Part shown: positions 1 to 49,418 of the stretch, one piece after another
Layout of the letters: each line of letters opens with the position of its first letter
Position numbering within the stretch: the stretch's first letter is position 1
Source: an uncultured delta proteobacterium
GTDB taxonomy: Bacteria; Desulfobacterota; Desulfobulbia; Desulfobulbales; Desulfocapsaceae
Length of the DNA stretch: 57,660 bases
Assembly: GCA_903875445.1 (NCBI GenBank)
Contig: CAIQWD010000079.1
Coordinates: 1-57,660, forward strand
Reading direction: 5' to 3'
Translations under genes and position numbers: made by a program
The notes under the pieces: generated by a model
Told to the model about the DNA's origin: nothing
What the model saw: the letters and a program-made list of their open reading frames with translations, nothing else
The model's database searches: none

Positions 1-351
1 GATGTCAGGAGATTGATTGCCCAAGCAGCATTGGAAAAAGATTTTCAATTGGTTTGCCCGCTTCCACGCAAATCGATAGCAAATACCTTCGCGGCCGCAA
101 TCATGAAGATCGCGGCATGAAACCTTTTCAGGAAACTTCAGGTATATAGTAGACACCTTCAATTTGGGTATTTGCAAGAAAACAGAACGTTCAATGTGGC
201 AATATTAACCGCACAACTTGAGTCGGAGTCACGGCAGAACATTTTCTCGGTGGAATCAGAAATCACTATCAGGGGTTCTTCCCTAACCGGCCATTAACCA
301 CGCTCCTTCGATACTCTAAGAGCTGATTATTTCCGATGGCCCAGATAGCAG
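1..351. other. Gene-free left edge
   Basis: No reading frame with a ribosome binding site or recognisable family was seen on either strand. The stretch lies downstream of the hybrid kinase gene, which is on the minus strand and ends at 352. No clear terminator hairpin with a T-run could be picked out by eye. It may hold the end of a gene that lies outside the window. Confidence 0.4.
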
Positions 352-3300: not shown

Positions 3301-3975
3301 GACAAATTTCCGATTCCACCGTGTGATTTTTCCTTGTCTGTCGACAATGAGAATACCATCGGTAGTGGATTCCAGAGAGGCAGCTAGCAATGACAGAGAA
3401 CTTTGCAAAGCCGTCTCAGTCTGCTTGTGCTCTACAATCTCATGTGAAAGGTTTTCATTTGTCTGTAGCAGATTATTGTTTGCCTCGGAAAGCTGAATCG
3501 TGCGTTCTGCGACTAGCTTTTCCAGGAACTGATTCCGATCCACCAGTTCCTTCATCGGATAGATTTCACCCTCACGAACCAGGTGGTAGGGAATGGATAT
3601 ACTACTATGGGAGATTTTCCAAACTGAGGTTTCTTTGCGGAATATCAGAACCAGGCGGGCTGTCTCCCGTGACAATATGTGGTCCTTAATCGGCAGATGG
3701 ATGGTGAAGAATCCTGTTGTGACTGCAATCGTTTCAGACAATGACTGGATGGCCAGATCCTTCAGTTCGATGCGGAGTGGATCCTTGACTTGGGCGAAGT
3801 CTTGCCGGGTAATATCAACCCATTCTTCCCTGTTCTTGACCAGAAAATCCCCACCTCCGGTGAAGCCGGAAAAGTCATCGCTGAAATGCGAGGTGAGCCG
3901 ATCATCGCGGGATGAATACATCCTTAGGTAGTCATCGAACAGCTGCCGGATTACTTGATAGTCGTTTGCGTCCAT
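352..3975 (-). CDS. Hybrid sensor histidine kinase: SnoaL-like domain, five PAS domains, HisKA/HATPase and receiver
   Basis: A predicted cytoplasmic two-component hybrid kinase of 1,207 residues. Residues 1 to about 143 look like a SnoaL/NTF2-like ketosteroid-isomerase-type fold, followed by a coiled coil. Next come about five PAS/PAC repeats (roughly 200-815), each ending in the usual DITERK- or DITEHR-type linker. The H-box is GGVAHDFNN with the phospho-acceptor near His840. The ATPase domain has N and G boxes (NARDS, GTGLGLS). A C-terminal receiver spans about 1081-1200, with the acceptor Asp near 1134 in LLMTDVIMP and Lys in FIQKPF. No membrane segments or signal peptide are visible, so the ligand should be intracellular. 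No cognate output gene is adjacent. The SnoaL-like N-terminus is inferred from pattern only, and the sensed signal is unknown. Confidence 0.9.
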   Translation of the reverse strand: MDANDYQVIRQLFDDYLRMYSSRDDRLTSHFSDDFSGFTGGGDFLVKNREEWVDITRQDFAQVKDPLRIELKDLAIQSLSETIAVTTGFFTIHLPIKDHILSRETARLVLIFRKETSVWKISHSSISIPYHLVREGEIYPMKELVDRNQFLEKLVAERTIQLSEANNNLLQTNENLSHEIVEHKQTETALQSSLSLLAASLESTTDGILIVDRQGKITRWNRKFVEMWRIPQEVLSSRDDEKVINCILVQLVDPNQFIENVRKLYEQPAQSSFEQIEFLDGRVFERYSQPQRIEDTIVGRVWSFHDITERKRAEATINNSNKLLQTVINTAPMRIFFKNKQLRYLGCNNAFAKDAGVVCAEDLIGKDDYQLAWKEQAELYQTDDLHVIESGVPKLSYDEPQTTPGGNQVWLRTSKVPLRNEANKIIGVLGMYEDITDRKKVETDRTRLMLRQRAILDNLPMMAWLKDTESRLDMINEPYANACGHTVEECIGKTDLDLFPKEMAIGFIADDREVCASGQKKQVEEAISTPDGIKWHLTYKTPVYDEQGVIIGTAGIAQDITERKKSAEALSQSEAHYHSLFDNSLVGVTVTDKSFIFTDANDAFCRMLEYSREELVGKMTFSDISHPNDVVKSMDMVNKLIRHDIDHFSLEKYYVSKTGKTIPTLIYVRGHYNLNGEYEGTTASILDITERKKADDLLRESNEKFIVAFKNAPIIIAISNLEDGTYLDINQRFIDTFGFSREEVIGKSSIELGLLTESHRQQLLEVIKKKGKIEDVDLVMSTKSGKELFFKYWGESITISNQKRILSISLDITEHRKIEQQLQQAQKMDSVGRLAGGVAHDFNNMLGVILGHAEIAMDQLDPTQPLFADLEEIRKAASRSADLTRQLLAFARKQTVVPKVLDLNETIEGLLKMLRRLIGEDIDLVWMPGAGLWPVKVDPSQLDQILANLCVNARDSITGVGKIIVETSNGTFAEEFCATHAGCFSGEYVRISMSDTGCGMDRETLSQIFEPFFTTKGVGEGTGLGLSTVYGAVKQNNGFVDVFSEPGQGTIFTINLPRYMYAGTTGPAFKEGAAAPVEGGHETILVVEDEPTILKMTTTILQHLGYMVIAANTPSEAIRLVGEFVAEIHLLMTDVIMPEMNGPDLAERLMIIKKGMKCLFMSGYTSDIIANQGVLAEGTHFIQKPFSRKELAVRIRKVLNTEDGKIH

Positions 3976-5164
3976 TGGTCATTTTTCTCTGTAATACAAA
4001 GCAGGAGCGCAGTTAGCTAGCCTAACTAATTTGTTTTTTTATTTACCGATTAATACAAAGCGTACCGTACCATTAAATTTAAACCTTCCCCCTTCTGCCC
4101 ACTGTACCCCAACTCGAAGATGGTTTAAAGACTACCAACGGAGGTGGCTCTGTCCGTTTGAACAAGTATCTGAAGAAATTATGTAAAATTTCTTGAGCCA
4201 AGGAAAGATATTTCCAAAAGTTGTGGGTCTATATATCGGAGGTGTACGTAACAAATCCTGTTTTTTCTTTTTATGTTAAATTGTTACCTGATGTTATTTT
4301 TCTCTGTTTTTTTCTGATAAGTCAAGTTTTTTCCCAGAGGGAGCTCCGTCAAGGGCTGGCAATCCTAAGATCATGATAGGATGGTCAACATGACCTTATC
4401 CTGAGCCCGCGAAACCTGAATAGTAGAAACCTTAAGTTGTCGAAATTATATATATAAATATATCTTGGAAATGGCAATATTAGCCTTGGTCATTATCCGC
4501 GAGCTTTAACACTTAGGAAGATTTAACGGAGTCACTTCTGTATCATTTGTCAGACCTGACGATCATAATTCCCTGCGGTTTCATGATACATGAATTGCAT
4601 GAATGCCCTGATTCGGGCTGTCAATCGAATGTCCCGATGGGTTAATATCCATACATGATGATTACATTCCGGGGGTAATTCCCAAAATTGTTTCCCGGGA
4701 TCCGGCAGGCTCCGGCTCCGAGCGAAACAAAAGGAAAAGCAGGATCTGTCTTTCTGATTTTCTTTTTAATTTTAGAATTCTTCACTGAAAATCCTGAGCA
4801 CCATTTTGCATACCGTCCCAGTCAAAACTGTCTGTAAGCTGATATACCTTGTTAAAGACAACAACCTGATTAAATTGTGAAATCTTGACTTGTAATTCTT
4901 CCAAAGATTCGATAGCAGGAGGGCAAGTCCAGCTTTTCCCAAAATAGCCGCACATATTCTGTTCACAAAGTTTTTCACTTCAGGTCTGAACGGTACCTTG
5001 GAGTAAGAAATCGTTTGTGAATTGTGAAAAAGATCCCGAATAAAGTCGTTAAATCGCACTCGTTGAATATTCTCACTTCTCTAAGCAGTGGGCCAGTCTT
5101 AAGCCCACGTTCAACAAGTCAACCTCATTACCATTCAATATGCGCCATTCATGGCAAAAAACCA
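3976..5164. other. Long intergenic region, no supported gene
   Basis: About 1.2 kb lie between the kinase start and the end of the LysR gene. It is AT-rich in places, for example a TA-repeat stretch near 4448-4465. Several short inverted motifs occur near 4580-4640. A 95-codon minus-strand frame (4772-5059) has a GTG start, no convincing ribosome binding site and no family resemblance. The kinase promoter should be at the left end, just above 3975, but no clear -35/-10 pair was found. Confidence 0.5.
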
Positions 5165-6052
5165 TTACTTATCACTGTGCTTGAGATAAAAACTGATGAA
5201 TTTTTCAATAATTGGTTTTTGGTTCTCAGGGTGGCGCACCAAACTGATCGCAAAAGAGCAATCCTCATCAAGGATATCGACACAGGTAATATTTCCGGAA
5301 ATATTGGCTTCCTTTAAATGTTCCGGCAGTAACATAACGCCGCTATCCGGCTTGATGCTTAATGCGGCTTCTTCGATTGACCGTGTTTCCAGTTTTTTTC
5401 TTGGAGGGTGGAATCCGCGCCGGTGGCAGAGCTCACACCAGTCTTCAAACAGGGCATCTCCCCAAAATCCTACAAGGGAAATAAAATATTCATTCTGCAA
5501 ATCGGCAACTTGCACCCCGGTTCTTGTTGCCAGACGGTGATTCCGATTTACTAAGATAACTACCGACTCATTGAATACATCGTGAAAGATCAGGTCCTGG
5601 GAATTGAGAAAATTGACTCTAGGCAAAACAGCAACATCAACTTCCTTTGAAAATAAACCATTTATAATTGCATCGGGATATGCCGGCAAATAGTTTATTT
5701 TCACCCTGGGGTTAGCAGACTCAAATAACATTATGATATTGCTTAAATATTTCTTAACGCCATAATAGGGGACGCCAATGGTGATCTTTTCCATGCCCCC
5801 TTTTGAGACCGCTTCACAGAGAAAATCATAATCATCTATGATTTTTTGAATGCCTCCTAAAAAGTGTTTTCCCTCTTCAGTGAGTTTGACGACATGCGTA
5901 TCCCTTTCAAATAGTTTAATCCCGATTTCCTTCTCAAGTCCCGAAATATGGCGGCTTAATCCTGGCTGAGTCATATGCAGCTGGCTGGCGGCAATTGAAA
6001 AGTTCAGATGTCTTGATAGAGCAATAAACTCTCTGAAGTAACTCAGTTTCAT
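5165..6052 (-). CDS. LysR-family transcriptional regulator of the demethylation cluster
   Basis: A DNA-binding regulator of about 295 residues, the usual LTTR length. The N-terminal winged helix-turn-helix is clear (NFSIAASQLHMTQPGLSRHI), followed by the LTTR linker and a periplasmic-binding-protein-like effector domain. The ATG at 6052 is chosen over an upstream in-frame one because GGGGAGGAG sits directly before it and the HTH then starts at the normal distance. It is transcribed divergently from the methyltransferase gene at 6230, the classic arrangement for a LysR activator of the neighbouring operon. The shared 177-bp gap contains two inverted repeats that could be its binding sites. Its co-inducer is unknown; by context it would be the methylated substrate or its demethylated product. 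Confidence 0.9.
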   Translation of the reverse strand: MKLSYFREFIALSRHLNFSIAASQLHMTQPGLSRHISGLEKEIGIKLFERDTHVVKLTEEGKHFLGGIQKIIDDYDFLCEAVSKGGMEKITIGVPYYGVKKYLSNIIMLFESANPRVKINYLPAYPDAIINGLFSKEVDVAVLPRVNFLNSQDLIFHDVFNESVVILVNRNHRLATRTGVQVADLQNEYFISLVGFWGDALFEDWCELCHRRGFHPPRKKLETRSIEEAALSIKPDSGVMLLPEHLKEANISGNITCVDILDEDCSFAISLVRHPENQKPIIEKFISFYLKHSDK

Positions 6053-6127
6053 ATCTCCTCCCCCTCTATTACGTGGGCCAAAAGTCATACCACTTCCCAA
6101 AAAGGATGTATACACAGCAACTTCAAC

Positions 6128-6146
6128 TTATGCAATCGCTGCATAA
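6128..6146. promoter_or_regulatory. Inverted repeat, candidate LysR operator 1
   Basis: TTATGCA-ATCGC-TGCATAA is a perfect 7-bp inverted repeat with a 5-bp spacer and contains a T-N11-A-type core. It lies in the gap between the divergent lysR and methyltransferase genes, nearer lysR. LysR proteins usually bind such dyads near their own promoter, so autoregulation is the natural inference. Confidence 0.5.
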
Positions 6147-6172
6147 CCAATTTTTTTTTATCATTTCCATTA

Positions 6173-6194
6173 GTTTATACAACCATCTATAAAC
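6173..6194. promoter_or_regulatory. Inverted repeat, candidate LysR operator 2
   Basis: GTTTATA-N8-TATAAAC is a perfect 7-bp dyad. A further copy of the half-site TATAAAC lies at 6206-6212, 18 bp downstream in the same orientation. It sits just upstream of the methyltransferase gene, where an activation site or promoter element is expected. The sequence is AT-rich, so chance is a real alternative. Confidence 0.4.
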
Positions 6195-6229
6195 AATCAA
6201 ATTCATATAAACTATGGGAGGTACATTAC

Positions 6230-7033
6230 GTGATTATTATCGGTGAGAAAATAAATGGGGCAATCTCTTCTGTGGCCGAAGCGATTGTCCAAAAGGATGT
6301 CGATTTCATCAAAAATCTTGCAAAAACCCAGGTCGAGGCTGGTGCTGATTTCATTGATGTCTGTGCGTCAGCTGATGTGAAAATTGAACTGGAAACCATG
6401 AAATGGCTTATCGACCTTGTCCAGGAAGTCGTTGATACACCCATTGCTATCGACAGCCCTGATGCGAATGTATGTGCCAGGGCTGTGGCTTTCTGCAAAA
6501 AGCCAGGTTTGATCAACTCCGTTTCCATGGAAGGGAACAAGATTGAAGTGGTATTTCCTGTTATTGCTGGCACCAAATGGGAATGTGTTGCGCTACTTTG
6601 TGACGATACCGGTATCCCCAAGACCGGAAAGAAGCGTTTGGAAATATTTGACGCGTTTATGCATAAGGCCAAGGAATACGACATAGCCCCTTCCCGCCTT
6701 CATATAGATCCCTTGGTTGAGATGCTCTGCACTTCAGAAGACGGAATTAACACCATCCTGGAAGTAATCAGGGAAATAAAGAGGCAATACCCTGCCATTC
6801 ATGTCACTGGCGGTGCCAGCAATATCTCCTTCAATCTTCCTGCCAGAAAGTTTGTAAACCAGGCATTTCTTGTTCTGGCTATGGGCGCGGGGATGGACAG
6901 CGCCATTATCAATCCTTTGCATAACCATATGATGGGATTGATTTATGCCACAGAAGCACTGAAAGGCAATGATGAGTACTGCATGGAATATATTAACGGC
7001 TATAGGGAAGGGCTCTATGGCCCTGTCAAGTAG
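6230..7033 (+). CDS. Methyltetrahydrofolate:corrinoid methyltransferase-like protein (MT II, pterin-binding)
   Basis: A 267-residue pterin-binding TIM-barrel protein of the AcsE/MtvA/MetH-THF family. It should move the methyl group between the corrinoid protein and tetrahydrofolate in the cytoplasm, most likely from methyl-Co(III) to THF during substrate demethylation. The family signature is plain: EKINGA at the N-terminus, DFIDVCAS, AIDSPD, and GGASNISFNLPARK near the C-terminus. It starts at a GTG preceded by GGGAGG (6216-6221). The length equals the family norm. It is the first gene of the run with corrinoid protein and substrate methyltransferase, 46 bp before the corrinoid gene. The direction of transfer and exact substrate specificity are inferred from context. 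Confidence 0.9.
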   Translation: MIIIGEKINGAISSVAEAIVQKDVDFIKNLAKTQVEAGADFIDVCASADVKIELETMKWLIDLVQEVVDTPIAIDSPDANVCARAVAFCKKPGLINSVSMEGNKIEVVFPVIAGTKWECVALLCDDTGIPKTGKKRLEIFDAFMHKAKEYDIAPSRLHIDPLVEMLCTSEDGINTILEVIREIKRQYPAIHVTGGASNISFNLPARKFVNQAFLVLAMGAGMDSAIINPLHNHMMGLIYATEALKGNDEYCMEYINGYREGLYGPVK

Positions 7034-7079
7034 GCATGGATCAACTATTGTTTCACTTTATTAAAGGAGGATTCTTGAA

Positions 7080-7715
7080 ATGGCTAAAATTGATGAAGTT
7101 AGATCCAAGGTAGAAACAGGTAAAACAAAACTCGTTCCGGGGTTGGTTCAGGAAGCACTTGATGAGGGTAGCAAGCCTGCTGATATCCTTGGTGCCATGG
7201 TCGGTGCCATGAGTGTTGTCGGTGATAAATTCTCGTCCGGTGAAATTTTCGTTCCCGAGATGCTTATCGCCGCAAAGGCCATGGCCAAAGGTGTAGAAGT
7301 CCTTAAACCCTATTTATCCGGAGAAACATCGGTGTCCCTAGGAACTTGTGTTATTGGTACGGTTCATGGTGACCTCCATGATATCGGCAAAAATCTTGTT
7401 GCCATGATGATTGAGAGCGCCGGTTTTACAATGGTTGATCTTGGCGTCGACGTTCCTGCCGAAAAATTTATCCAGGCAATCAAGGAAAACGAAAATGTAA
7501 AACTCGTAGCATGTTCCGGTCTGCTCACCACCACCATGCCTGCCATGAAAGATACTGTTGAAAAACTCAAAGGCAGTGGACTTGCCGGATTCAAAGTGAT
7601 GGTCGGCGGAGCTCCTGTTACTCAGGCGTATGCGATTGAAATCGGGGCGGATGCCTATGCTCCGGATGCAGGAAGTGCAGCCGTCAGAGCCAAGGGACTC
7701 GTTGCAGCCGCCTAG
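7080..7715 (+). CDS. Methyltransferase corrinoid protein (cobalamin-binding)
   Basis: A 211-residue corrinoid protein of the MtaC/MtbC/MtvC type that shuttles the methyl group between the two methyltransferases. Residues 1-85 form the helical cap (B12-binding 2) domain. Residues about 88-211 are the Rossmann-like B12-binding domain with the GDLHDIGKN motif; His100 is the expected lower cobalt ligand (DxHxxG). The downstream S-x-L (SGLLTT) and GG (VMVGGAP) motifs are present. AAAGGAGG lies just upstream of the ATG. It is placed between methyltransferase II (6230) and the UroD-type methyltransferase (7750), as in known O-demethylase and methyltransferase operons. The cofactor will need reductive repair after oxidation to Co(II), which explains the reactivator genes downstream. 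Confidence 0.95.
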   Translation: MAKIDEVRSKVETGKTKLVPGLVQEALDEGSKPADILGAMVGAMSVVGDKFSSGEIFVPEMLIAAKAMAKGVEVLKPYLSGETSVSLGTCVIGTVHGDLHDIGKNLVAMMIESAGFTMVDLGVDVPAEKFIQAIKENENVKLVACSGLLTTTMPAMKDTVEKLKGSGLAGFKVMVGGAPVTQAYAIEIGADAYAPDAGSAAVRAKGLVAAA

Positions 7716-7749
7716 CCACATAACATCAACTTTATAGAGAGTTTCAACT

Positions 7750-8730
7750 ATGTTGACCGCAAAGCAGAACTTACTGGAGACAATCAGAGGTGGTAATCCT
7801 GATAGATTTGTAAACCAATACGAATTTCTGGAGCTTATTGTGTTTATGCCAGGATTTAAATATCCGCTGCAACCGGGCGTGACAGTCAAGGACGACTGGG
7901 GTATCACCTTTACCTTTCCGGAGGGACAGATCGGTGGTTTCCCTCTTCATGACGACGAGCACAAAGTGCTCAAGGATATTAGCCAGTGGGAAGACGTGGT
8001 CAAGCCTCCCGTTCTGGATACCTCGGACGAAGCATGGGCTCCGGCTATGGAGATAGCGAACAGCGTGAACCGTGATGATAAATTTGTGACAGCGTGTCAG
8101 ATGCCGGGCGTTTTTGAAATGACCCATCATATGATGGGAATGGAGGACGCTTTAATGGCACTCTATGAGGAGCCTGATTGTATGCACGGACTCATTGAAA
8201 GGGTGACGGATTTTGAGCTAAAAAGGGCTGCAATGATCGTTGACCGTATACAACCAAATGCCCTTTTCCACCATGATGATTGGGGTGGACAGATATCAAC
8301 ATTCATCTCTCCGAATATGTTCAAAGAATTCTTCCTGGCGTCCTATAAAAAAATTTACAAGTTCTGGAAAGACAATGGGGTCGAACTGATTATCCACCAT
8401 AGCGATTCCTATGCCGCTACTTTGGTTCCCTTTATGATTGAAATGGGAATTGATATATGGCAGGGCGCAATGACTACAAATAACATCCCAAGATTGATTG
8501 AAAAATATGGGTCTCAAATCAGCTTTATGGGAGGTATTGACAGCGGTGAAGTCGATTTTCCTAAGTGGACTCCGGAGATATGTGCTGAGCATGTTGAAAG
8601 AATCTGCAGAAGTTGCGGTAAGCATTACTTCATCCCCAACCTAACCCAGGGGCTAAACTTCAGTTCTTTTCCGGGAGTATATGAGGAAGTAAGTGTTCAA
8701 ATTGATAAAATGAGCAAAAAAATGTTCTGA
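7750..8730 (+). CDS. UroD-family substrate:corrinoid methyltransferase (MT I), probable O-demethylase component
   Basis: A 326-residue protein of the uroporphyrinogen decarboxylase/MtaA superfamily. In O-demethylase systems this family supplies the component that cleaves the substrate methyl ether and methylates the corrinoid. The MtaA-type zinc motif His-x-Cys is absent: the matching segment reads HHSDS (His216-His217-Ser-Asp219), although Cys286 and Cys289 follow. A Glu141-X14-Glu156 pair and the HHDDWGG motif at 174-180 are alternative metal ligands. Ether-cleaving enzymes of Acetobacterium were reported to bind zinc through Glu/Glu/His. Being third in the operon after the corrinoid protein supports the role. 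It could act on methoxylated aromatics, another methyl ether or a methylated sulfur or nitrogen compound; the sequence alone does not decide. Confidence 0.85.
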   Translation: MLTAKQNLLETIRGGNPDRFVNQYEFLELIVFMPGFKYPLQPGVTVKDDWGITFTFPEGQIGGFPLHDDEHKVLKDISQWEDVVKPPVLDTSDEAWAPAMEIANSVNRDDKFVTACQMPGVFEMTHHMMGMEDALMALYEEPDCMHGLIERVTDFELKRAAMIVDRIQPNALFHHDDWGGQISTFISPNMFKEFFLASYKKIYKFWKDNGVELIIHHSDSYAATLVPFMIEMGIDIWQGAMTTNNIPRLIEKYGSQISFMGGIDSGEVDFPKWTPEICAEHVERICRSCGKHYFIPNLTQGLNFSSFPGVYEEVSVQIDKMSKKMF

Positions 8731-8990
8731 CAAACTCTTCTGTTTGTTCTTGAATTCCAGGCTTACTTACCAGGTTTTCAACTAGGCGATCTAAGCCCAT
8801 GCCTATTTATGTGACTTAGTCGATACAGGAATGATGTGTTACTTAAAAAATCAACTGTATTGAGAGCTGCTCCCATGTATGAGAACAACCACCATGCAAT
8901 GCCAGCATTTATGGCAACAGGAAAACAATACGGAACCAATTCCTCCGTTTTGTTATGATTTGCAAAACCCCCCATTTTGGAGAGATAATA

Positions 8991-9896
8991 ATGAGATACT
9001 TCAATAAGGTAAATATTTTCGCTGTGGCTTTTTATGCATTTTTGTTCACCCCGGTAAGCTGTAACCTTGCTAATGCCTTCGGTCATTATGAGCCCGGGGC
9101 TCTCGGTTTGAACGCCGCCAGCCTCCCCCCCCCAGGTTTTCACTATACCATCTACAATATGTTTTACAATGCCAGCACATTGCATGACAATAACGGCAAT
9201 TTTGTCGATGCAGGGCTTGATCTAAATGTTTTTGCCAGTGCCCACCAGTTTACGTATATGACCAATCAAAAAATCCTCGGGGCGGATTTCGGTTTTGACA
9301 TGATCGTTCCTCTGGTCAACGTGGATATTAAAATGGCAGGTGTCAATGAGAGTACCACAGGCATAGGTGATCTCTATTTTGAACCATTTGTACTTGGTTG
9401 GCATACTCCGCGGTGGGATTTCGCATTTGCACTTGGCGTTTTTGCCCCGACAGCCGCGAGCGGCGAACCTTCTTCCATAGGTAAAGGATATTGGAGTTTC
9501 ATGGAAACTCTTGGTGCTACCTACTATTTCGATGAGTCAAGAACCTGGACGGTCTCTCTTTTGACGCGCTGGCTGCAGAATACCGAAAATCGGGATACCA
9601 ACGTAACTCCCGGCACCGAAGTCGTTGCCGAGTATGGCCTGGCCAAGGCCTTCCCCAGCGAAAACCATATCATAACTGCCGGAATAGCAGGGTATACCTA
9701 TGCTCAACTGACGGAAGATTCCGGCACTGGTGCCAGTGATAATAAATTTATCGGTAATAGTATAGGACCGGAAATCAGATACATGGCATTCAAACCGTTT
9801 CCATTTCAGGTTGCCCTTCGCTATCTCACCGAATATGGAGCAGAAAATACGACTGAAGGCACTACTGTTTGCCTACAGCTCATCGGTTCTTTCTAA
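8991..9896 (+). CDS. Outer-membrane transporter-like beta-barrel protein (phenol MetA-pathway family)
   Basis: A 301-residue secreted protein with a Sec signal peptide (residues 1 to about 29, cut after ANA). The ATG at 8991 is chosen because GGAGAG lies 6 bp before it and the signal peptide then begins normally. The body has alternating aromatic/hydrophobic strands, aromatic-rich segments such as YYFDES, and ends in Phe, as outer-membrane barrels do. It resembles the MetA-pathway phenol degradation transporter family, whose members sit beside aromatic catabolism genes. It lies in the same direction as the methyltransferase genes after a 260-bp gap. A role in passing the methylated (possibly aromatic) substrate across the outer membrane is inferred. 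Confidence 0.75.
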   Translation: MRYFNKVNIFAVAFYAFLFTPVSCNLANAFGHYEPGALGLNAASLPPPGFHYTIYNMFYNASTLHDNNGNFVDAGLDLNVFASAHQFTYMTNQKILGADFGFDMIVPLVNVDIKMAGVNESTTGIGDLYFEPFVLGWHTPRWDFAFALGVFAPTAASGEPSSIGKGYWSFMETLGATYYFDESRTWTVSLLTRWLQNTENRDTNVTPGTEVVAEYGLAKAFPSENHIITAGIAGYTYAQLTEDSGTGASDNKFIGNSIGPEIRYMAFKPFPFQVALRYLTEYGAENTTEGTTVCLQLIGSF

Positions 9897-10223
9897 CATG
9901 CAGGTTTTTTCTCGAGATTACAGAAGTGGTCTAGAAAAATTGAACATGCGGTTAAGTGTGAAATCTGCTACCAATAGTACCCAATTACCGTTCTAGACCT
10001 CATGCAAGATTAAACAGAAAAACACCTGATAAGGCCTATGTGAGGTAGGTTGAAAAAAGTGGATACCAAATATTTTAGGCAATCTCATTTTATAAATAAA
10101 TGGCAATGTTAAAAAGCATTATAGACAGCGGGTCTTGAGCTTCTTGAAAATCCTTACTATTGAGTTCCGCATATAACCAATAAAAGGATCAGATGATGAA
10201 AAAATCACGCCTTGCGCAAAATC

Positions 10224-10370
10224 TCACTCCATTACTTCTCTGATTTTTTTGCCGAGGTCGCCCATGGAAAACGGTTTCTGGATGAAGTGCACACCCTTAT
10301 CGAGTACCTCATGATGGGCGATGGCGTTGGCGGTATAACCGGACATAAACAGGCATCACTTGTGGTGAGG
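10224..10370 (-). pseudogene. Remnant of a response-regulator receiver domain
   Basis: Reading the minus strand gives about 43 codons ending in a TGA at 10224. They match the last third of a receiver domain: CLFMSGYT, then GVHFIQKPFS with the conserved Lys. By hand alignment 26 of 43 residues match the C-terminus of the hybrid kinase at 352. A TGA immediately precedes the CLF segment and nothing further upstream resembles a receiver, so this is a fragment, not a gene. It is the end of a lost kinase or regulator, left between the outer-membrane gene and the MetH-like gene. Confidence 0.75.
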
Positions 10371-10571
10371 GGGGGTGGATTCTGCATAACTCCGGGAGCC
10401 GTTGTTGATCAGGCCAATGCGGAGAATGTCAAGGCTTGCCTGGAGTGTGGACGTAACTTCTGTAAATATTAATCTTTTTAGTAAGCTTTGGGGGAAGATT
10501 GTTGCAGTCATTACAGGACCAAACTCTCTTCCCCCCTTTTCGCGGTCCAGCGCAAAGAGCAAATTTAAACG

Positions 10572-11288
10572 GTGAAAGTCAAAATGACTATCTTAGAAAA
10601 TATTCCAACACAAGTCGACTTTCAGCGATTACTGAATGCAATCGGCGGTGACAGGAAAATTCCCGGGATACGGGCTGAAGCGCAATGGGCCTGTGAAACA
10701 GTAGAGCAATTGGCGAAACCAAAGGCAATTGTTGGGATATTTCAAATTGACAGGATTGAAACAGATACGATTACAATAACTTCTGAAGATATTTCAGAAC
10801 CGGTAAAACTCGAGATTGGCAAGAGAGGTGTCTCCCTGCTTGAAGGTGCCAATTGTGTGCAAGTCAGTTTTGTTACTCTGGGCATGAAGATGCAGTCTCA
10901 GAATGATGACCTGCAAAAGCAGGATAAGATGTTGAAGCAATATCTACTCGATACGGCGTCAATTTTAGCCTTGTATCATGCAGGTCGAATAGTTGATCAG
11001 CATGCGGAGAAAATTGCTGCAGTAAAAAGCTGGGGAGTAAGTCGCCGGCTCAGCCCTGGAGACTTGCGCGCCTGGGCTCTCTGCGGACAATGTGTTTTAG
11101 GAAAACTTTTACCTGTTGAACAAATTGGTATAGAAATCAAAACCAGTGGATTGTTGTACCCTTTAAAAACTGCCAGCAGTTTGATTGGTATTGGCCCCGG
11201 CCTTACCTCCGACCGGGTTGGGACTATTTGTCAATGGTGCCGTAATCAGAAAACCTGCCCCATAACATTATCCAAACTTGATGGGTGA
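10572..11288 (+). CDS. MetH activation-domain-like protein (putative corrinoid reactivation)
   Basis: A 238-residue protein resembling the vitamin B12-dependent methionine synthase activation domain standing alone. Supporting segments are VSFVTLGMKM, the SRRLSPGD turn (family R-x-SPGY), the GIEIKTSGLLYPLKTAS segment (family L-x-SxxM-P-xKS) and IGIGPG. The tail adds a cysteine cluster, CQWC-x5-C. In MetH this domain binds AdoMet for reductive methylation of cob(II)alamin. Stand-alone versions occur beside corrinoid methyltransferases, and their exact job is not settled. The GTG at 10572 is given; an in-frame ATG at 10584 is equally possible, and neither has a strong ribosome binding site. It lies in the same direction as the cluster, before the MFS gene. 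Confidence 0.7.
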   Translation: MKVKMTILENIPTQVDFQRLLNAIGGDRKIPGIRAEAQWACETVEQLAKPKAIVGIFQIDRIETDTITITSEDISEPVKLEIGKRGVSLLEGANCVQVSFVTLGMKMQSQNDDLQKQDKMLKQYLLDTASILALYHAGRIVDQHAEKIAAVKSWGVSRRLSPGDLRAWALCGQCVLGKLLPVEQIGIEIKTSGLLYPLKTASSLIGIGPGLTSDRVGTICQWCRNQKTCPITLSKLDG

Positions 11289-11400
11289 GTGTTTTACCAT
11301 CCATTTTCTTTAGTCATTTCTCCGCTCACAATAACAAATACCGCAAAGGAAAATTAACAATTTGCTTTTGCTTCAAAGACCAAATACCAGTCACTAGGAG

Positions 11401-12624
11401 ATGGGCAGAAAAGTGAAAATTAGAGAATCACAAGTCAGCAAAACAGAATTTATTGGCCTGATGGCAGTATTCATGTCGCTGGTGGCATTAACAACAGATT
11501 CGGTGTTACCAGCATTAGCTCAAATCGGAGATAGTCTGGGGGTGCAAAACCCAAACAATAATCAAATGATTATTTCAATCTTTTTTTTAGGAATGGCAGT
11601 AGGAATGCTGTTTTATGGTCCCTTTTCTGACTCATTTGGCCGAAAAAACGCAATTTATCTTGGGATATCAATTTTCATCTTTGGCAATTTGATTTCATTA
11701 TTATCAACAAATCTCACCTCCATATTGGTTGGAAGAGCGTGTCAGGGGGGTGGATTAGCTTCTTGCAGGGTTGTTACTCTGGCCATGATTCGAGACACAC
11801 TGCAAGGGAGAGAAATGGGTAGAGTGATGTCGTTAATAATGGTTATCTTCATGATAGTACCTGCAATTGCCCCGTCTATAGGACAAACAGTTCTTTTTTT
11901 TGCACAATGGCGAGCTATCTTTGGAATTATTTTAATAGTTACAGTTGTCGCCACCTTATGGTTTTTATTTCGTCAGCCAGAGACCTTACCCAAGGAAAAA
12001 CGACTGGCATTTTCAGTTCCAACGATCCGTGCCGGATTTATTGAAACCATAAGAAACCCCATAACCCGTCTCTACACGCTTGCCTCGGGAGTTATCTTTG
12101 GGGCATTCATAGGCTATTTAAGCTGTGCTCAACAGATTTTACAAAACCAGTATAAGCTTGGTGATGCGTTCTCTCTTTATTTTGGAGGACTCTCGATTGC
12201 TATCGGATTCTCGTCTTTTGTGACTTCTAAACTTGTGATGAGATTTGGGATGGAAAAACTCAGCTTCTTTTCTTTGCTCCTTCTCTCAATATCCTCTTCT
12301 ATTTTTTATTTGTATGCACGAAGTAATTTTGGACAACCAGCTCTGTATCTTTTAATGGGATATCTCACAATCACATTTTTTAGTTACGGAGTACTTTTTA
12401 GCAGTTTTAATGCACTGGCGATTCAACCCTTGGGGCATATTGCCGGTATAGCAAATTCCGTTATCGCATCTGTGCAAACACTGTTGTCCGTAGCAGTAGG
12501 AGGACTGATTGGACAGTGTTATGATGGAACTGTCCTGCCTCTGGTACTAGGTTTTCTGCTTTGTGGTCTATCATCATTGTCAGTTGTGGTTTACATTCGA
12601 AAATTCAGCTCAGAAGCCAACTGA
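11401..12624 (+). CDS. MFS transporter, Bcr/CflA-like
   Basis: A 407-residue inner-membrane carrier with about 12 hydrophobic segments. The family loop motif GMLFYGPFSDSFGRK between TM2 and TM3 (around residue 78) matches the Bcr/CflA drug-resistance branch of the major facilitator superfamily. AGGAG directly abuts the ATG at 11401, which is too close for a normal ribosome binding site; a GTG at 11413 is in frame and may be the true start. It sits between the two putative corrinoid-reactivation genes. Its role is therefore probably import of the methylated substrate or export of the demethylated product, for example a phenol. The sequence does not fix substrate or direction. Confidence 0.85.
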   Translation: MGRKVKIRESQVSKTEFIGLMAVFMSLVALTTDSVLPALAQIGDSLGVQNPNNNQMIISIFFLGMAVGMLFYGPFSDSFGRKNAIYLGISIFIFGNLISLLSTNLTSILVGRACQGGGLASCRVVTLAMIRDTLQGREMGRVMSLIMVIFMIVPAIAPSIGQTVLFFAQWRAIFGIILIVTVVATLWFLFRQPETLPKEKRLAFSVPTIRAGFIETIRNPITRLYTLASGVIFGAFIGYLSCAQQILQNQYKLGDAFSLYFGGLSIAIGFSSFVTSKLVMRFGMEKLSFFSLLLLSISSSIFYLYARSNFGQPALYLLMGYLTITFFSYGVLFSSFNALAIQPLGHIAGIANSVIASVQTLLSVAVGGLIGQCYDGTVLPLVLGFLLCGLSSLSVVVYIRKFSSEAN

Positions 12625-12682
12625 AGCATTGGGTTGTACGAGCTGGTTTCTGTCCAGTAATGAGCGTATTTGGAGGAAAACA

Positions 12683-14296
12683 TTGGAAAAGCAGCTTGTA
12701 AATTCAAATCAATGTACGATTCAGTTACTTCCAATTAGCCGAGCCATCTCTGTGGAAAAAGGCGGCAACCTCCTCAACGCTCTTTATGAGCAGAATATTA
12801 TTCTGCGAACCGACTGTGGAGGCAGGGGTATCTGCGGAAAATGCCGGATATATATCGTAAACCAAGACGGGCAGCACGAAGAATGTAACTCCTGCACCGT
12901 AACTGTTGAAAAGGATATGACAGTTGAGATACCACTTGGATCAATGTTGTCTCCGGAGGTGATTGGCAAGGCCCCGGTCCAATTACCTGAACAATTTATT
13001 CGCATGATGCAGGAATGCAATCACTCTGCAGACTTTGGTCTCGCAGTTGACCTGGGTACAACTACCATTGCCATCTATCTGGTAAACACCAGTTCTGCCG
13101 AAATTTTGTCCTCCAGCTCCTTGAAAAATCCCCAGGCTTTATTCGGCGACGATGTAATGAGTCGAATATATAATGTTTCAGAAGACGAGGCCAATCTTCG
13201 TCATCTACAAACCTTGGCTGTCAAGACCATTGAGTTGGGAGCTATGGCCCTGCTTAAAGCCTGTCAGATACCCCATACGGGTCTGCGAAGTATGGTGGTT
13301 GTCGGTAACCCAACCATGATCCATCTGTTCCTGGGAGTAGATCCCCAACCTCTTGGCGTTACACCCTACCAACCCGTATTCACTCAATCCAGGGTTACTG
13401 CCAGCCAGCAGATCGGTTTTGAACAATTACAACTCAATATTTTCACCCTGCCTCAAATTTCTGGCTTCATTGGCGGAGACTTGCTTAGCGCCGCTCTGGC
13501 TGCAGATATTGAGCATGCCCCCCATGGTACATTGCTGATAGATATCGGAACCAACGGGGAACTGATTCTAAAAGCCGGATCAGGACTTTATGCAACATCA
13601 TGTGCAACCGGCCCAGCTTTTGAGGGTGCAACACTTTCTTGCGGTATGCAGGCAGTTTCTGGAGCAATTGATGATGTCATTATAGAAAACGCACTCTGTC
13701 CGCCCCGCTGTACTGTACTGTCACGAAACGGTTCCACCAATAAGCCCAAACCGTCTGGGATCTGTGGATCGGGTGTCGTCAGTTGCCTGGCAGAGATGGT
13801 GCGAACCGGAATTGTCGAATCAAGCGGCGCCTTCACCCAACAGAAAGGTATTACACATCTCTTAAAAGATAGGTCAAGAGGCCACCGCTTCCAGATCTTT
13901 AACAAGGAAGAATCCGATACCGGGCAGGAAATTTCACTCTGCCAAAAAGATATCCGCGCCATACAACTTGGCAAGGGAGCTCTTATAACCGGGATTGAAA
14001 TTCTGCTCCGCAGGGCTGGACTGGAGCAATTGGAAAGGATCATCCTGGCCGGAGCCTTCGGATCACATCTCAAACCCGAAGATTTGATGGCTATTGGTAT
14101 GATACCACAAATGGATCGAAGTAAAGTGACCGTAGCCGGCAATCTTGCCGGTGCCGGTGCGGTCATGGCACTCTGTGATGAAAACAGCCGTAGCAAGGCC
14201 GATGAACTTGCAAACTCTGTTGTCACCATAGATCTCGCCGGAGATCCGGAATTTCAACGTCATTTTATTAAACGACTTTCCTTTCCTCCCCCCTGA
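12683..14296 (+). CDS. RACE protein: ferredoxin-ASKHA ATPase reactivating the corrinoid protein
   Basis: A 537-residue reductive activator of corrinoid-dependent enzymes, of the type found in O-demethylase and acetyl-CoA pathway operons. It reduces inactive Co(II) to Co(I) using ATP. The N-terminal [2Fe-2S] domain has Cys45, Cys51, Cys54 and Cys68 or Cys71 (DCGGRGICGKC). After a linker, the ASKHA ATPase core (DUF4445 type) starts with VDLGTTTIA near residue 121, with later DIGTNGE and GICGSG motifs and GAFGSHL near the C-terminus. The TTG at 12683 is chosen because GGAGG lies 6 bp upstream. A longer frame from 12563 would overlap the MFS gene and add 40 residues foreign to the family. It is the last gene of the cluster. 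Confidence 0.9.
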   Translation: MEKQLVNSNQCTIQLLPISRAISVEKGGNLLNALYEQNIILRTDCGGRGICGKCRIYIVNQDGQHEECNSCTVTVEKDMTVEIPLGSMLSPEVIGKAPVQLPEQFIRMMQECNHSADFGLAVDLGTTTIAIYLVNTSSAEILSSSSLKNPQALFGDDVMSRIYNVSEDEANLRHLQTLAVKTIELGAMALLKACQIPHTGLRSMVVVGNPTMIHLFLGVDPQPLGVTPYQPVFTQSRVTASQQIGFEQLQLNIFTLPQISGFIGGDLLSAALAADIEHAPHGTLLIDIGTNGELILKAGSGLYATSCATGPAFEGATLSCGMQAVSGAIDDVIIENALCPPRCTVLSRNGSTNKPKPSGICGSGVVSCLAEMVRTGIVESSGAFTQQKGITHLLKDRSRGHRFQIFNKEESDTGQEISLCQKDIRAIQLGKGALITGIEILLRRAGLEQLERIILAGAFGSHLKPEDLMAIGMIPQMDRSKVTVAGNLAGAGAVMALCDENSRSKADELANSVVTIDLAGDPEFQRHFIKRLSFPPP

Positions 14297-14308
14297 TTGC
14301 TACTTTCT

Positions 14309-14611
14309 TTACTTATCAGCGGTTTCTTTTGCAGATACCTGCGCTTCTATCACCCTGGGAAAGTTATATTCTATCCAATCGGCCAATTGGGCAACATGTC
14401 CGGCAATCTCTTCACCCATCTCAGTCAGGCTGTATTCCACATGTGGCGGCACACATGGATAGGATTTTCTGAGCACAAAATCATCAAAGGCCAATGCCTG
14501 CAGGCTTTGCGCCAGCATCTTCTCACTGACTCCGCCCAATTTCCTGCGTAATTGGCTAAATCGCATAACCTTCTCGGCACGCAATGCCATGATGGAAGAC
14601 TTTCCCGGACA
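14309..14611 (-). pseudogene. N-terminally truncated HxlR-family regulator
   Basis: The frame encodes most of an HxlR winged-helix domain: RFSQLRRKLGGVSEKMLAQSL, then VPPHVEYSLTEMG. The usual start (CP, about 12 residues, then GGKW) is collapsed to CPGKSSIMALR right after a TAG stop at about 14612. The recognition helices are thus kept but the first helix is gone. The only ATG (14590) would give 93 residues against a usual 110-130. Probably a deletion remnant; it could in principle still be translated. It runs opposite to the RACE gene, 12 bp after it. Confidence 0.65.
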
Positions 14612-15151
14612 CTAAATGAGGAAACCTATGGATAGCCCATTCAAGCCACGGGACTACAACACCAACACTTAAAGCCCATTCCAGGTAATACTGTAGAGGA
14701 TAGCCGCTTTCTCTTTTTTGTTCTTTACACCAAAGAGAATATAATTCATTAATTTTCCTATTAAATTCAGTTGATTGAAGCACGCAATAAACAGCAACTT
14801 CTATATTCACTCCATCGACTTGTCTATATCCCTCTGCCGCAGAGAAATGGTTTTCAATTCGTTTTATTTCCTCTTCGAGAAATTCATAACCTAAACGAGA
14901 ATGTTGATTGAATTCTGAGATTCCGACCTCTTGATAACCGGAAGGGACACAAAGCGCTTGGATATAGTCGAGCTTTATGGGTCCTTGAGATAATCCGTTA
15001 TCCCTGATTGTGGAATATCTAAGCGGTCGATCTCTAAAGGCTGTGGCACCAACCCGATAAGGAGTTGAAGTGCGGAAAGAGCATCATACGTTTCATTTTC
15101 ACCCCAAAGTTCAATATGTTGCTCATAGCAATTGTATTCATTCTCCGACAT
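14556..15151 (-). pseudogene. Frameshifted hypothetical gene coupled to the integrase
   Basis: A 58-codon frame begins at ATG 15151 with GAGGA upstream and stops at 14975. The next frame continues with a protein-like sequence (TSTPYRVGATAFRDRPLRY, YEFLEEEIKRIEN, YYLEWALSVGV) to 14556. Adding one T to the TTT run near 15080 joins both into about 190 residues, so one base seems to have been lost, or misread in sequencing. The ATG lies one base after the integrase stop, suggesting translational coupling and membership of the integrated element. The last ~20 codons read through the HxlR remnant in another frame, so the 3' end was cut by the same rearrangement. The family was not recognised. Confidence 0.55.
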
Positions 15152-15152
15152 T

Positions 15153-16376
15153 TCATTGTTCCTCGCTTACTATTTCACCGCCCTGTTCCATTATCTGTAA
15201 TTGCCAGCCCCACCAGTCCATCAAAGCATGCCTCTGTTCCAAATATTCAGCACGGTTATAGGCGGCCTTAATCTTGTTCTTTTCTTCGTGAGCAAGAGCT
15301 TTCTCTATGACCTCGCCAGGCTGTCCGGATTTCTCATACGCTGCTGAAGAAAAGGAAGCTCGGAACCCATGAGGAGTGGCAATTCCTTTATACCCCATAT
15401 CGCGCAAGGCTTTTGACATGGCATTGTCCGACATAGGCTTGTTCCTATCTCTGACACTGGGGTAAACCAAACCGTCGACGCCAAAAAGAACCCCGGCCCT
15501 CTCTAATATTCCAACGGCCTGTTTTGAAAGTGGTACGATATGAGGACGTTTCATTTTCATCCTCTCTGCCGGTATATGCCACTCTCTTTCATCGAGATTA
15601 ATTTCCGACCACCTCGCCCCCCTCACCTCATTCGACCGACAGGCCGTATGCGCCGTAAATTGAAGGGCCAGTTTTGTTGTGAGATGTATCTTCTCGCTGG
15701 CGGCAATATCGCGAAGGAGACTACCAAGATCATCACCGAATACCGCAGGCATATGCTTCACCGGCTTTGATTTCAAAACGCCTTGCATGTCAGAGGCCGG
15801 ATTGTACATCGCCCGACCGGTTTGAATTGCATACCGGAAAACAGCAGTCATTCGTTGGAGGACCTTTCTGGCAATCTCCAAAGAACCCCTCTCCTCAATT
15901 CTTCTTAATATTTCTAAGACATCAGGAGGTGTTATTGTTTCAATGTTTCTCTTCCCGAGACCTTCAAACACATTGTTCTTCAGCGATCGCACCACCGAAT
16001 CTGCATGACTCTTGCTCCAGCCCCCCCGTTGTTGCATTATCCAGTCAAGGGCTATAAATTCAAACGTTTGTTCTCTCTCGTTCCGTAAGGTTTTTTCTCT
16101 GTTACTGTTTTCCTCCCGTTTTTTGCGTCTAACCTGAGAAGGATTTATTCCCTGCTTAACCAGAGCCTTGGCTTTTCTATGCGCATTTCGAGCTTCTTCA
16201 AGAGAGGTTTCAGGGTAGTGGCCGATTATAAACATATTTCCTTTGCCGCCAACCCTGAAGCGGTATAGCCAACGCTTAAGCCCTGAAGACGTAATTTCAA
16301 AATAAAGACCACCACCATCCACCAATCGACAGTTTTCTTTCGCCTGGCGCAGTTGCAAGACCGTAAGTTTAGGCAT
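15153..16376 (-). CDS. P4-type tyrosine integrase
   Basis: A site-specific recombinase of about 407 residues, the usual size for P4/SfX-like integrases. It has the N-terminal Arm-type DNA-binding domain (LTVLQLRQAKEN, GGLYFEI, GGKG), a SAM-like core-binding domain, and a C-terminal catalytic domain. That domain carries Arg in TACRSNEVRGARWSEI, the HGFRASFSS box, His in LAHEEKN and the Tyr in AAYNRAEYLEQR. The ATG at 16376 follows GGAG by 5 bp; a GTG at 16382 is an alternative. The gene lies about 200 bp 3' of tRNA-Leu(TAA) in the same direction, the normal arrangement for an island integrated at a tRNA 3' end. It marks the right boundary of the accessory region. Confidence 0.95.
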   Translation of the reverse strand: MPKLTVLQLRQAKENCRLVDGGGLYFEITSSGLKRWLYRFRVGGKGNMFIIGHYPETSLEEARNAHRKAKALVKQGINPSQVRRKKREENSNREKTLRNEREQTFEFIALDWIMQQRGGWSKSHADSVVRSLKNNVFEGLGKRNIETITPPDVLEILRRIEERGSLEIARKVLQRMTAVFRYAIQTGRAMYNPASDMQGVLKSKPVKHMPAVFGDDLGSLLRDIAASEKIHLTTKLALQFTAHTACRSNEVRGARWSEINLDEREWHIPAERMKMKRPHIVPLSKQAVGILERAGVLFGVDGLVYPSVRDRNKPMSDNAMSKALRDMGYKGIATPHGFRASFSSAAYEKSGQPGEVIEKALAHEEKNKIKAAYNRAEYLEQRHALMDWWGWQLQIMEQGGEIVSEEQ

Positions 16377-16420
16377 AATCACTCCAGAATGTGTGTATAA
16401 TTGCGACTCAGTTCGTTATA

Positions 16421-16437
16421 GCGTATTAAATATACGC
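16421..16437. repeat. Inverted repeat upstream of the integrase
   Basis: GCGTAT-TAAAT-ATACGC is a perfect 6-bp dyad. It is flanked by a second inverted pair, GTGTGTA (16391-16397) and TACACAC (16443-16449). It lies between the integrase start and the tRNA-Leu, where arm-type sites or an integrase promoter/operator would be expected. Function is inferred from position only. Confidence 0.35.
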
Positions 16438-16498
16438 ATTGGTACACACATCTGCAATGGATGTTAATGAACAAAAATGATCGAAAACGGAAGAAAAA

Positions 16499-16536
16499 GG
16501 AAAAAAAGAAGCCCATTATCAGGAAGATAATGGGCT
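16499..16536 (-). terminator. Rho-independent terminator after tRNA-Leu(TAA)
   Basis: On the minus strand an 11-bp perfect stem (AGCCCATTATC / GATAATGGGCT, 5-nt loop) is followed by TTCTTTTTTTCC. It stands 37 bp past the tRNA 3' end and should end its transcript before the integrase. Confidence 0.85.
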
Positions 16537-16572: not shown

Positions 16573-16660
16573 TGGTGCCTAGAGTCGGACTCGAACCGAC
16601 ACGCCCACAAGGAGCACGAGATTTTAAGTCTCGGGTGTCTACCTATTCCACCATCCAGGC
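16573..16660 (-). tRNA. tRNA-Leu (anticodon TAA)
   Basis: An 88-nt type II tRNA with the 3' CCA encoded. The acceptor stem is GCCTGGA/TCTAGGC (one G-U pair). The D-arm has GGTGGAATAGGTAGAC, the anticodon loop CTTAAAATC reads UUA, there is a long variable arm, and the T-loop is GGTTCGAGTCC. Its 3' end faces the P4-type integrase gene, so the gene very likely contains the attachment site. Confidence 0.97.
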
Positions 16661-48752: not shown

Positions 48753-49418
48753 CTAGGATTTGCGGGGACGCCCAGGCCTTCTCGCTCGTAATGGCTGATC
48801 CAATTTCAGTTCGAGCATATCGATAAATTGTTCGGAGCCGAATGGCCGGCCGATTCTAGTTATTCGGCGAATAGCCTCGTCGGTGTCTTCATCTTCAAGA
48901 TGGAGAAATTCACTATAGGCACTTCGTTTGTCCGGAGAGAGCCACGAGGGTTCGTAGAGCAGCGGGTCGGTTGTTTCGGCAAGATGGGATCTGGCACTCG
49001 ACCAGCGATATGCTTCGGCGCTCGTCACCACTCCGGTTCTCAAGGGATTGCGTTCGATATAGCGGGCCACATCCCAGAGATGTTGATCGTTTTCAACGAT
49101 ACAAGAGAAGAAACGATTTTGCCAGATTCGGCCGGAATGATCCAGTTTGCGGTTGAGATACTGGGTATACATCATATTGGTGAGCCCGATTCCCCGCGAC
49201 AAAGCACCTTCCGTCTCCGGTACGACCAAGAGATGGATGTGGTTATCCATCAGGCAATAGGCTAAGACCTGCAACTGCTGTTTGCGGGCATTAACTCGCA
49301 GCAAGCGCAAGAAGGTCACCCGGTCCACATCATCGAAGAAAACCGTGGCCCGATTGTTGCCGCGCTGGGTGATATGGTGGGGATATCCGGCGGCTATGAT
49401 ACGTGCGATTCTTGGCAT
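48753..49418 (-). CDS. REP-associated tyrosine transposase (RAYT, Y1 family)
   Basis: A 221-residue single-strand DNA transposase of the IS200/IS605-like Y1 fold. The HUH motif is MDNHIHLLV (residues 58-66) and the catalytic Tyr lies in NMMYTQYLNRK; the start PRIARIIAAGYPHHITQRGNN is typical of the RAYT clade. These are domesticated or REP-mobilising enzymes rather than free insertion sequences. The basic tail (RARRPGRPRKS) is also usual. Short palindromic motifs lie just upstream at 49428-49482. Confidence 0.93.
   Translation of the reverse strand: MPRIARIIAAGYPHHITQRGNNRATVFFDDVDRVTFLRLLRVNARKQQLQVLAYCLMDNHIHLLVVPETEGALSRGIGLTNMMYTQYLNRKLDHSGRIWQNRFFSCIVENDQHLWDVARYIERNPLRTGVVTSAEAYRWSSARSHLAETTDPLLYEPSWLSPDKRSAYSEFLHLEDEDTDEAIRRITRIGRPFGSEQFIDMLELKLDQPLRARRPGRPRKS

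Follow-up and report, generated by a model that had tools for sequence, protein, structure and literature searches.

A probable corrinoid-dependent O-demethylase-type cassette, most likely for methoxylated aromatics, in a Gram-negative sulfate reducer

The methyl groups of lignin-derived aromatics make up a large anoxic carbon pool whose use is usually credited to acetogens and some methanogens. We analysed a 57,660-nucleotide stretch of DNA (the window; contig CAIQWD010000079.1 of GenBank assembly GCA_903875445.1, positions 1 to 57,660) from an uncultured delta proteobacterium of the Desulfocapsaceae, and in particular a cluster of eight genes at 5165-14296. In our judgement this cluster is probably a corrinoid-dependent methyl-transfer cassette of the O-demethylase type in a sulfate reducer with an acetyl-CoA pathway, most likely serving methoxylated aromatics. 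The kind of system is already known from the Odm, Vdm, Mtv and Mto O-demethylases.

The Odm and Vdm systems of Acetobacterium dehalogenans and the O-demethylase of Desulfitobacterium hafniense combine a UroD-type methyltransferase I (MT I), a corrinoid protein, a MeTr-type methyltransferase II (MT II) and an activating enzyme (PMC13222342, PMC12915777). The window has all four, but differs in its Gram-negative host, a LysR box and a barrel behind MT I. The vanillate O-demethylase MtvABC of Moorella thermoacetica follows the same three-component logic (PMC8630106, PMC13222342), although its host is of Gram-positive type and we liken it by description, not by sequence. The archaeal Mto system (MtoA, B, C, D, MfsT, EffT and a regulator) likewise bundles core, activase, MFS and efflux carriers and a regulator, so that bundling with carriers and a regulator is not new in itself; it differs in being archaeal, with tetrahydromethanopterin as the proposed acceptor, a larger MtoB (47-48 kDa) and no outer-membrane channel in the description available (PMC8630106). 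The chloromethane system Cdm of A. dehalogenans, compared by description only, shares a UroD-type MT I, a corrinoid protein and an MT II, but its substrates are haloalkanes (PMC13222342). Finally, the syringate operon of Pseudomonas sp. NGC7 (channel PSN_2688, VanK-like PSN_2690) has a Phenol_MetA_deg channel with a part in growth on one methoxylated aromatic, whereas its demethylation is aerobic, of the VanAB type, and uses other enzymes (PMC12314914). Our search of titles and abstract openings, with subscription papers mostly outside it, found no O-demethylase gene cluster reported from a Gram-negative sulfate reducer, and we do not claim absence from print. What is new here is the Gram-negative bundle held in common with Desulfosarcina cetonica, a shared predicted operator, the existence of two architectures, and the discordant histories of the corrinoid protein and its MT I.

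An earlier note on the window had named a LysR regulator, MT II, corrinoid protein, MT I, outer-membrane barrel, activator, MFS carrier and RACE, and this gene content was borne out: all eight genes are open at the positions claimed in the list of the window's open reading frames, and seven of the eight proteins could be assigned to Pfam and NCBIfam families, the exception being the activator-like protein at 10572-11288. The proposed three-component core with RACE also holds at the level of families. MT II matches the methyl-tetrahydrofolate:corrinoid methyltransferase model NF005719 (361.9 bits, cut-off 259), and its closest PDB relative, over the full length, is 4o0q (307 bits), which going by PMC13222342 would be the D. 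hafniense MT II. This is a MeTr-type MT II like those of Odm, Vdm, Mtv and Mto at family level, with the folate acceptor taken from the family. The corrinoid protein has the two domains and B12 motif, and MT I the UroD superfamily membership (URO-D, 54.8 bits, cut-off 23.9), that mark O-demethylase systems. RACE matches RACo_C_ter (254.4 bits) and Raco_middle (150.4 bits) in Pfam and carries the cysteines of a ferredoxin-like domain at its N-terminus, as expected of an activating enzyme.

The claim that the host is a sulfate reducer was upheld as well, as far as marker genes can place it among the relatives of sulfate reducers. The window is a contig taken from base 1 (our C79) of a 4.89-Mb genome in 117 contigs, which contains dsrA (577.2 bits, cut-off 392.85) and the acetyl-CoA synthase domain CdhC/ACS; 16S gave no match in it. 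The MtaB family PF12176 has no match anywhere in this genome. Another of its genes (G000:C27) matches URO-D at 430.4 bits and is apparently the HemE of this genome.

A scan of named genomes recovered 38 MT I loci. The closest homologue is in D. cetonica (76% identity), followed by Desulfosporosinus (67-70%) and Acetobacterium (60-67%), with three loci at 64-67% in the A. dehalogenans genome. Within the window's family, MT I matches occur in 9 of 93 genomes at E<=1e-10 (four, its own included, at 61% identity or more, and five at 25-28%); at E<=1e-60 they occur in 4 of 257 genomes of its class and in 6 of 395 genomes drawn evenly from its phylum. Of 33 loci with an MT I at least 44% identical, 27 also hold a homologue of the corrinoid protein (the others being L023, L024, L026, L029, L030 and L031). 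In D. cetonica the gene order, a LysR gene divergent from MT II, corrinoid protein, MT I and a Phenol_MetA_deg barrel, is that of the window, with identities of 49% (LysR), 82% (MT II), 78% (corrinoid protein) and 76% (MT I); for RACE, the activator and the MFS carrier of the window, no counterpart was found on its 14.5-kb locus.

A second architecture is found in five genomes of the same phylum (G061, G062, G011, G404 and G377) that form a sister clade in the MT I tree. There GPH and aromatic-acid-symporter-like genes come first, followed by the core in the order MT II, corrinoid protein and MT I, and then by a gene in convergent orientation that encodes a GAF/sigma-54 activator. The symporter-like gene stands directly before the core in all five; the three symporters scored fall short of the TIGR00895 cut-off of 418.55, with 320-353 bits. 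In three of the five, the fetched stretch that holds the core also holds RACE. G404 and G377 have an MFS gene (28-29% identity) next to the cluster, and dsrA was found in the three genomes searched for it (G061, G062, G011). None of the four gaps scanned ahead of the GPH gene held a sigma-54 promoter. Ten further MT I loci, two to four each in G290, G459 and G501, are more distant (six at 50-55%, four at 36-37%). All six of the nearer ones (L105-L110) were fetched, and five stretches without a core homologue beside MT I hint at solo MT I genes in these genomes; the sixth has distant homologues of MT II (43%) and the corrinoid protein (37%).

The phylogeny of MT I separates the two architectures. 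The tree (50 rows, the A. dehalogenans loci L005, L006 and L010 included; L018 and the 27-32% identical loci L034-L038 were excluded here and from the model alignment) pairs the window with D. cetonica at support 100/99 and places the five-genome clade as sister at 99/97; all seven group together, at 98/91, within Bacillota sequences. MT I of the window is thus nearer to a distant genus than to its own, whereas DsrA shows the opposite (94% identity to G062 and 93% to G061, both of the same genus, 80% to G011 and 64% to D. cetonica). The MT II tree, built on a chosen subset as was that of the corrinoid protein (22 and 29 rows, free of partial or distant copies), agrees weakly with the MT I grouping (87/84). 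The divergence within MT I is concentrated near the N-terminus: over residues 26-75 the window and D. cetonica are 82% identical, while identity to ten other MT I proteins is 42-58% there and 59-73% across residues 76-326. As the substrate spectrum of such enzymes is reportedly controlled through the N-terminus, going by the title of a 2010 study by Kreher, it is plausible that the window's MT I takes a distinct substrate.

The active site speaks to the class of methyl donor. H217-x-D219 of MT I is invariant in all 37 aligned sequences and, in a profile alignment that is weak (E 0.02), coincides with the HxC of an MtaA-like protein encoded in this genome. UroD-type S-methyltransferases keep a His-Cys-Cys metal site, in which O-methyltransferases replace one or both cysteines by carboxylates or non-ligands, according to PMC10418091; by this rule HxD in place of HxC favours an oxygen-linked donor and gives MT I, as far as that alignment goes, the kind of metal site expected of an O-demethylase. 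That the core instead takes methyl groups from non-aromatic donors, for example aliphatic methyl ethers, quaternary amines or methylated sulfur compounds, is unlikely. The corrinoid protein does score best to the glycine betaine model MtgC, though at 185 bits against a cut-off of 370, and matches dimethylamine and methanol models, also below their cut-offs. However, URO-D is the sole Pfam match of MT I and NCBIfam gives it no methylamine- or betaine-type MT I model; it reaches 32.3 bits against a cut-off of 235.4 for the MtaA/CmuA model TIGR01463, and the invariant HxD is not the HxC of S-methyltransferases. Nor is there a hemE model among its NCBIfam matches at E 0.001. The substrate class with the best support is that of methoxylated aromatics, given the symporter-like gene before the core in all five sister genomes and the Phenol_MetA_deg channel of the NGC7 syringate operon (PMC12314914).

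The barrel and the regulator strengthen the likeness to D. cetonica. The barrel protein matches Phenol_MetA_deg well above its cut-off of 22 bits and, judged by eye, has an N-terminus resembling a signal peptide and a final phenylalanine. A member of this family stands directly behind MT I in both genomes of the window's clade. The bundling of the core with an outer-membrane barrel, as the earlier note had it, holds. Chance is an unlikely cause of this placement, as each genome has few Phenol_MetA_deg matches (2 in the window's genome, 11 matched stretches in D. cetonica); a rough estimate that places the genes at random in genomes of several thousand genes puts the odds at the order of one in a million. 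A mutant of the NGC7 channel PSN_2688 grows late on syringate (PMC12314914). The MFS carrier passes the cut-off for Bcr/CflA efflux (TIGR00710, 223.1 bits, cut-off 200.9), which suggests that it is more likely an exporter than an importer. Ahead of the core, the gap between the LysR gene and MT II holds a TTAT-N11-ATAA box, and so does the corresponding gap in D. cetonica (L001, 8369-8387), where it is the sole match in 14.5 kb (0.05 expected; 10 of 200 shuffled sequences matched). Control of the operon by the divergent LysR protein probably runs through this box; the pattern was not found in the five sister-architecture loci.

Several observations weigh against the O-demethylase reading or parts of it. 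The box pattern alone is not specific, since it occurs four times in the window (0.86 expected), three of them outside the LysR/MT II gap. The barrels of the window and D. cetonica give no BLASTP alignment (E 0.48), so that they have only the family in common: either their divergence was fast, or the two cassettes took up different members of the family. The sister-clade genomes have 0-2 Phenol_MetA_deg matches each, none on the contig of the core; the barrel is therefore not a general part of the cassette. We found no uptake symporter in the cluster, and with an efflux-type carrier the completeness implied by the description of a cluster with its own transport is doubtful, even though barrel and carrier are present; here the earlier interpretation is weakest, whereas its core with RACE, its sulfate-reducing host and its bundled barrel hold. 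E-x14-E-x20-H, which we take to be the zinc motif of VdmB, occurs at the aligned place in 17 of the 37 MT I sequences; the window's MT I lacks it, reading E132, G147 and Q168, and differs in this from Odm and Vdm. The corrinoid-protein tree does not pair the window with D. cetonica. And the kinship of MT I was judged on a set of sequences that contained no characterised OdmB, VdmB, MtvB or CdmB, the last of which is an example of a haloalkane enzyme among the relatives of O-demethylases (PMC13222342).

This last point bears on an alternative that we consider quite unlikely, namely that MT I is a chloromethane-type haloalkane enzyme like CdmB, or acts on another small hydrophobic donor, with barrel and MFS carrier handling hydrophobic compounds. 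CdmB is described as a zinc-free UroD-superfamily MT I that is related to O-demethylases and inactive on methoxylated aromatics (PMC13222342), and the divergent segment 26-75 leaves room for a different substrate. Yet the sister clade adjoins aromatic-acid-symporter-like genes, and the channel family of the barrel serves a syringate operon (PMC12314914). The closest characterised relative of CdmB is MtoB, at 31% (PMC13222342), while the window's 60-76% identical homologues form another tight group, in a tree that does not contain CdmB itself. The listed fold matches to the model of MT I do not include CdmB, and none of the PDB matches bears that name.

In the corrinoid-protein tree one branch (95/86) holds the window, G011, G062 and G061 with the outgroup, opposite D. 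cetonica and 23 others, and G404 and G377 are placed elsewhere again; the outgroup is very long and the root unsure. The window's corrinoid protein is 80% identical to that of G011, 79% to G062 and 78% to D. cetonica. Because MT I pairs with D. cetonica against the species relationship and the corrinoid protein does not, the cassette looks like a mosaic that did not move as one block. We tentatively suggest, as a possibility that falls short of an even chance, that the window and D. cetonica share a distinct Gram-negative O-demethylase cassette, in which MT I, a specificity subunit with an N-terminal segment of its own, travels between distant sulfate reducers together with a LysR gene, its box and an outer-membrane channel, is re-paired with a corrinoid protein of resident type, and would act on a methyl ether unused by the symporter-bundled sister form.

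Re-activation of the corrinoid protein may involve more than RACE. The activator-like protein on its own has no Pfam match, but used as a profile with 10 homologues it finds methionine synthase structures in PDB (1j6r, E 1.1e-10; 8g3h, E 1.3e-4). The MetH activation domain PF02965 matches 4 of these 11 family members at E<=1 (best 9.6e-08), the window's own not among them. Homologues occur in 12 of 257 genomes of the class, its own included, at 13 places, and RACE lies within 1.5-kb flanks at 6 of the 12 other places (L118, L119, L121, L122, L123 and L124), suggesting that this protein helps corrinoid re-activation in general. The two are separated by the MFS gene in the window. The gap of 675 bases between barrel and activator holds a broken receiver-domain remnant, and activator, MFS carrier and RACE may therefore be a transcription unit of their own. 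Promoter and terminator scans gave nothing above shuffled sequence.

The cluster lies on a likely genomic island. Bases 1-16500 have a GC content of 0.446, against 0.525 to the right of the tRNA and 0.493-0.56 in six other stretches of the genome, and an integrase gene, a possible vehicle of the cassette, sits between the cluster and tRNA-Leu(taa). Evidence for a second attachment site was not found: the 25 bases at the 3' end of tRNA-Leu have a single occurrence in the genome, even when three mismatches are allowed, and there is no repeat of this end in the window, whose left end is the contig start. Five of six fetched stretches from the same genus contain the tRNA-Leu, with no core homologue in the roughly 1 to 9 kb available beyond it. 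It is very unlikely, in our view, that core, barrel and the activator-MFS-RACE block are chance neighbours in a partly decaying acquisition, not one pathway. The low GC content, the integrase at tRNA-Leu, the differing histories of corrinoid protein and MT I, and the remnants that flank the activator-MFS-RACE block (the receiver domain at 10230-10355 and an HxlR-like regulator at about 14310-14590) would all fit such decay; however, all eight genes are open, the order of LysR, core and barrel recurs in a distant genome, and RACE accompanies the core in three of five sister-clade genomes and the activator at six of 12 other loci.

The features are collected in Table 1. The LysR protein probably starts at ATG 6052. 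We corrected two further starts: that of the barrel to ATG 8991 (the earliest in-frame start is at 8955), and that of RACE to TTG 12683 behind a GGAGGA box, in place of GTG 12563 inside the MFS gene.

Table 1. Features of the cassette and its surroundings in the window.
Feature	Positions	Strand	Details
LysR-type regulator	5165..6052	-	296 aa from ATG 6052; divergent from core; HTH (helix-turn-helix) and substrate domains
Predicted LysR operator TTAT-N11-ATAA	6128..6146	+	perfect TTATGCA-N5-TGCATAA palindrome here
MT II, methylcorrinoid:tetrahydrofolate methyltransferase	6230..7033	+	267 aa; Pterin_bind and NF005719
Corrinoid protein	7080..7715	+	211 aa; DxHxxG...SxL...GG motif; B12-binding and B12-binding_2
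MT I, UroD-superfamily substrate:corrinoid methyltransferase	7750..8730	+	326 aa; URO-D
Outer-membrane beta-barrel, Phenol_MetA_deg family	8991..9896	+	Pfam 155.7 bits
Remnant, hybrid histidine-kinase receiver domain	10230..10355	-	60% over 42 aa to kinase at 352-3975
MetH-activation-domain-like protein, putative corrinoid re-activation helper	10572..11288	+	238 aa; profile-based
MFS carrier, Bcr/CflA efflux type	11401..12624	+	407 aa; TIGR00710
RACE	12683..14296	+	537 aa from TTG; ferredoxin-like N-terminus, RACo middle and C-terminal domains
Tyrosine integrase	15153..16382	-	Arm-DNA-bind_3, Phage_int_M, Phage_integrase; adjoins tRNA-Leu; not part of pathway
tRNA-Leu(taa), possible integration target	16573..16660	-	

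Beside the cassette lies the gene for a hybrid histidine kinase of 1207 aa (352-3975), which begins with a SnoaL_3 domain and also has several PAS domains and a receiver domain. Near 10360-10470 we suspected a second, broken MT I but do not claim it, its peptide having matched none of the loci fetched by then. Elsewhere in the window, the minus-strand open reading frame at 48753-49418 resembles, by its sequence, a REP-associated transposase. A PADLOC search of three proteins gave no match. The same genome holds a second corrinoid methyltransferase cluster (L064, 10622-16055 and 17579-18241, on G000:C113) with two UroD proteins, one of them matching NF004889 (278.7 bits against a cut-off of 244), a corrinoid protein that shares 49% identity with that of the window, a MetE-like protein and, judged by eye, ABC transporter-like genes; it is reminiscent of the type 1 mlp clusters described in PMC10418091.

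Taking activities, substrate, transport direction and regulation together, we infer the following route. A methylated substrate, most likely a methoxylated aromatic, would cross the outer membrane through the Phenol_MetA_deg barrel, and in the cytoplasm MT I would transfer the methyl group to the Co(I) that the corrinoid protein carries. From there MT II would hand it to tetrahydrofolate, and methyl-tetrahydrofolate would feed the Wood-Ljungdahl pathway. RACE, probably helped by the MetH-activation-like protein, would return Co(II) to Co(I), while the demethylated phenol, or some other toxic product, probably leaves the cell through the Bcr/CflA carrier. From its predicted box, the divergent LysR protein would govern the operon.

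In summary, Gram-negative sulfate reducers would gain a testable genetic route to the methyl groups of lignin-derived aromatics, with a candidate channel, operator and regulator. Two architectures can be separated, one with a LysR regulator and a barrel, the other with symporters and a sigma-54-type regulator. The MT I enzymes of the two differ most in the N-terminal segment, where substrate choice may lie, and their substrate specificity can therefore be tested by direct comparison.

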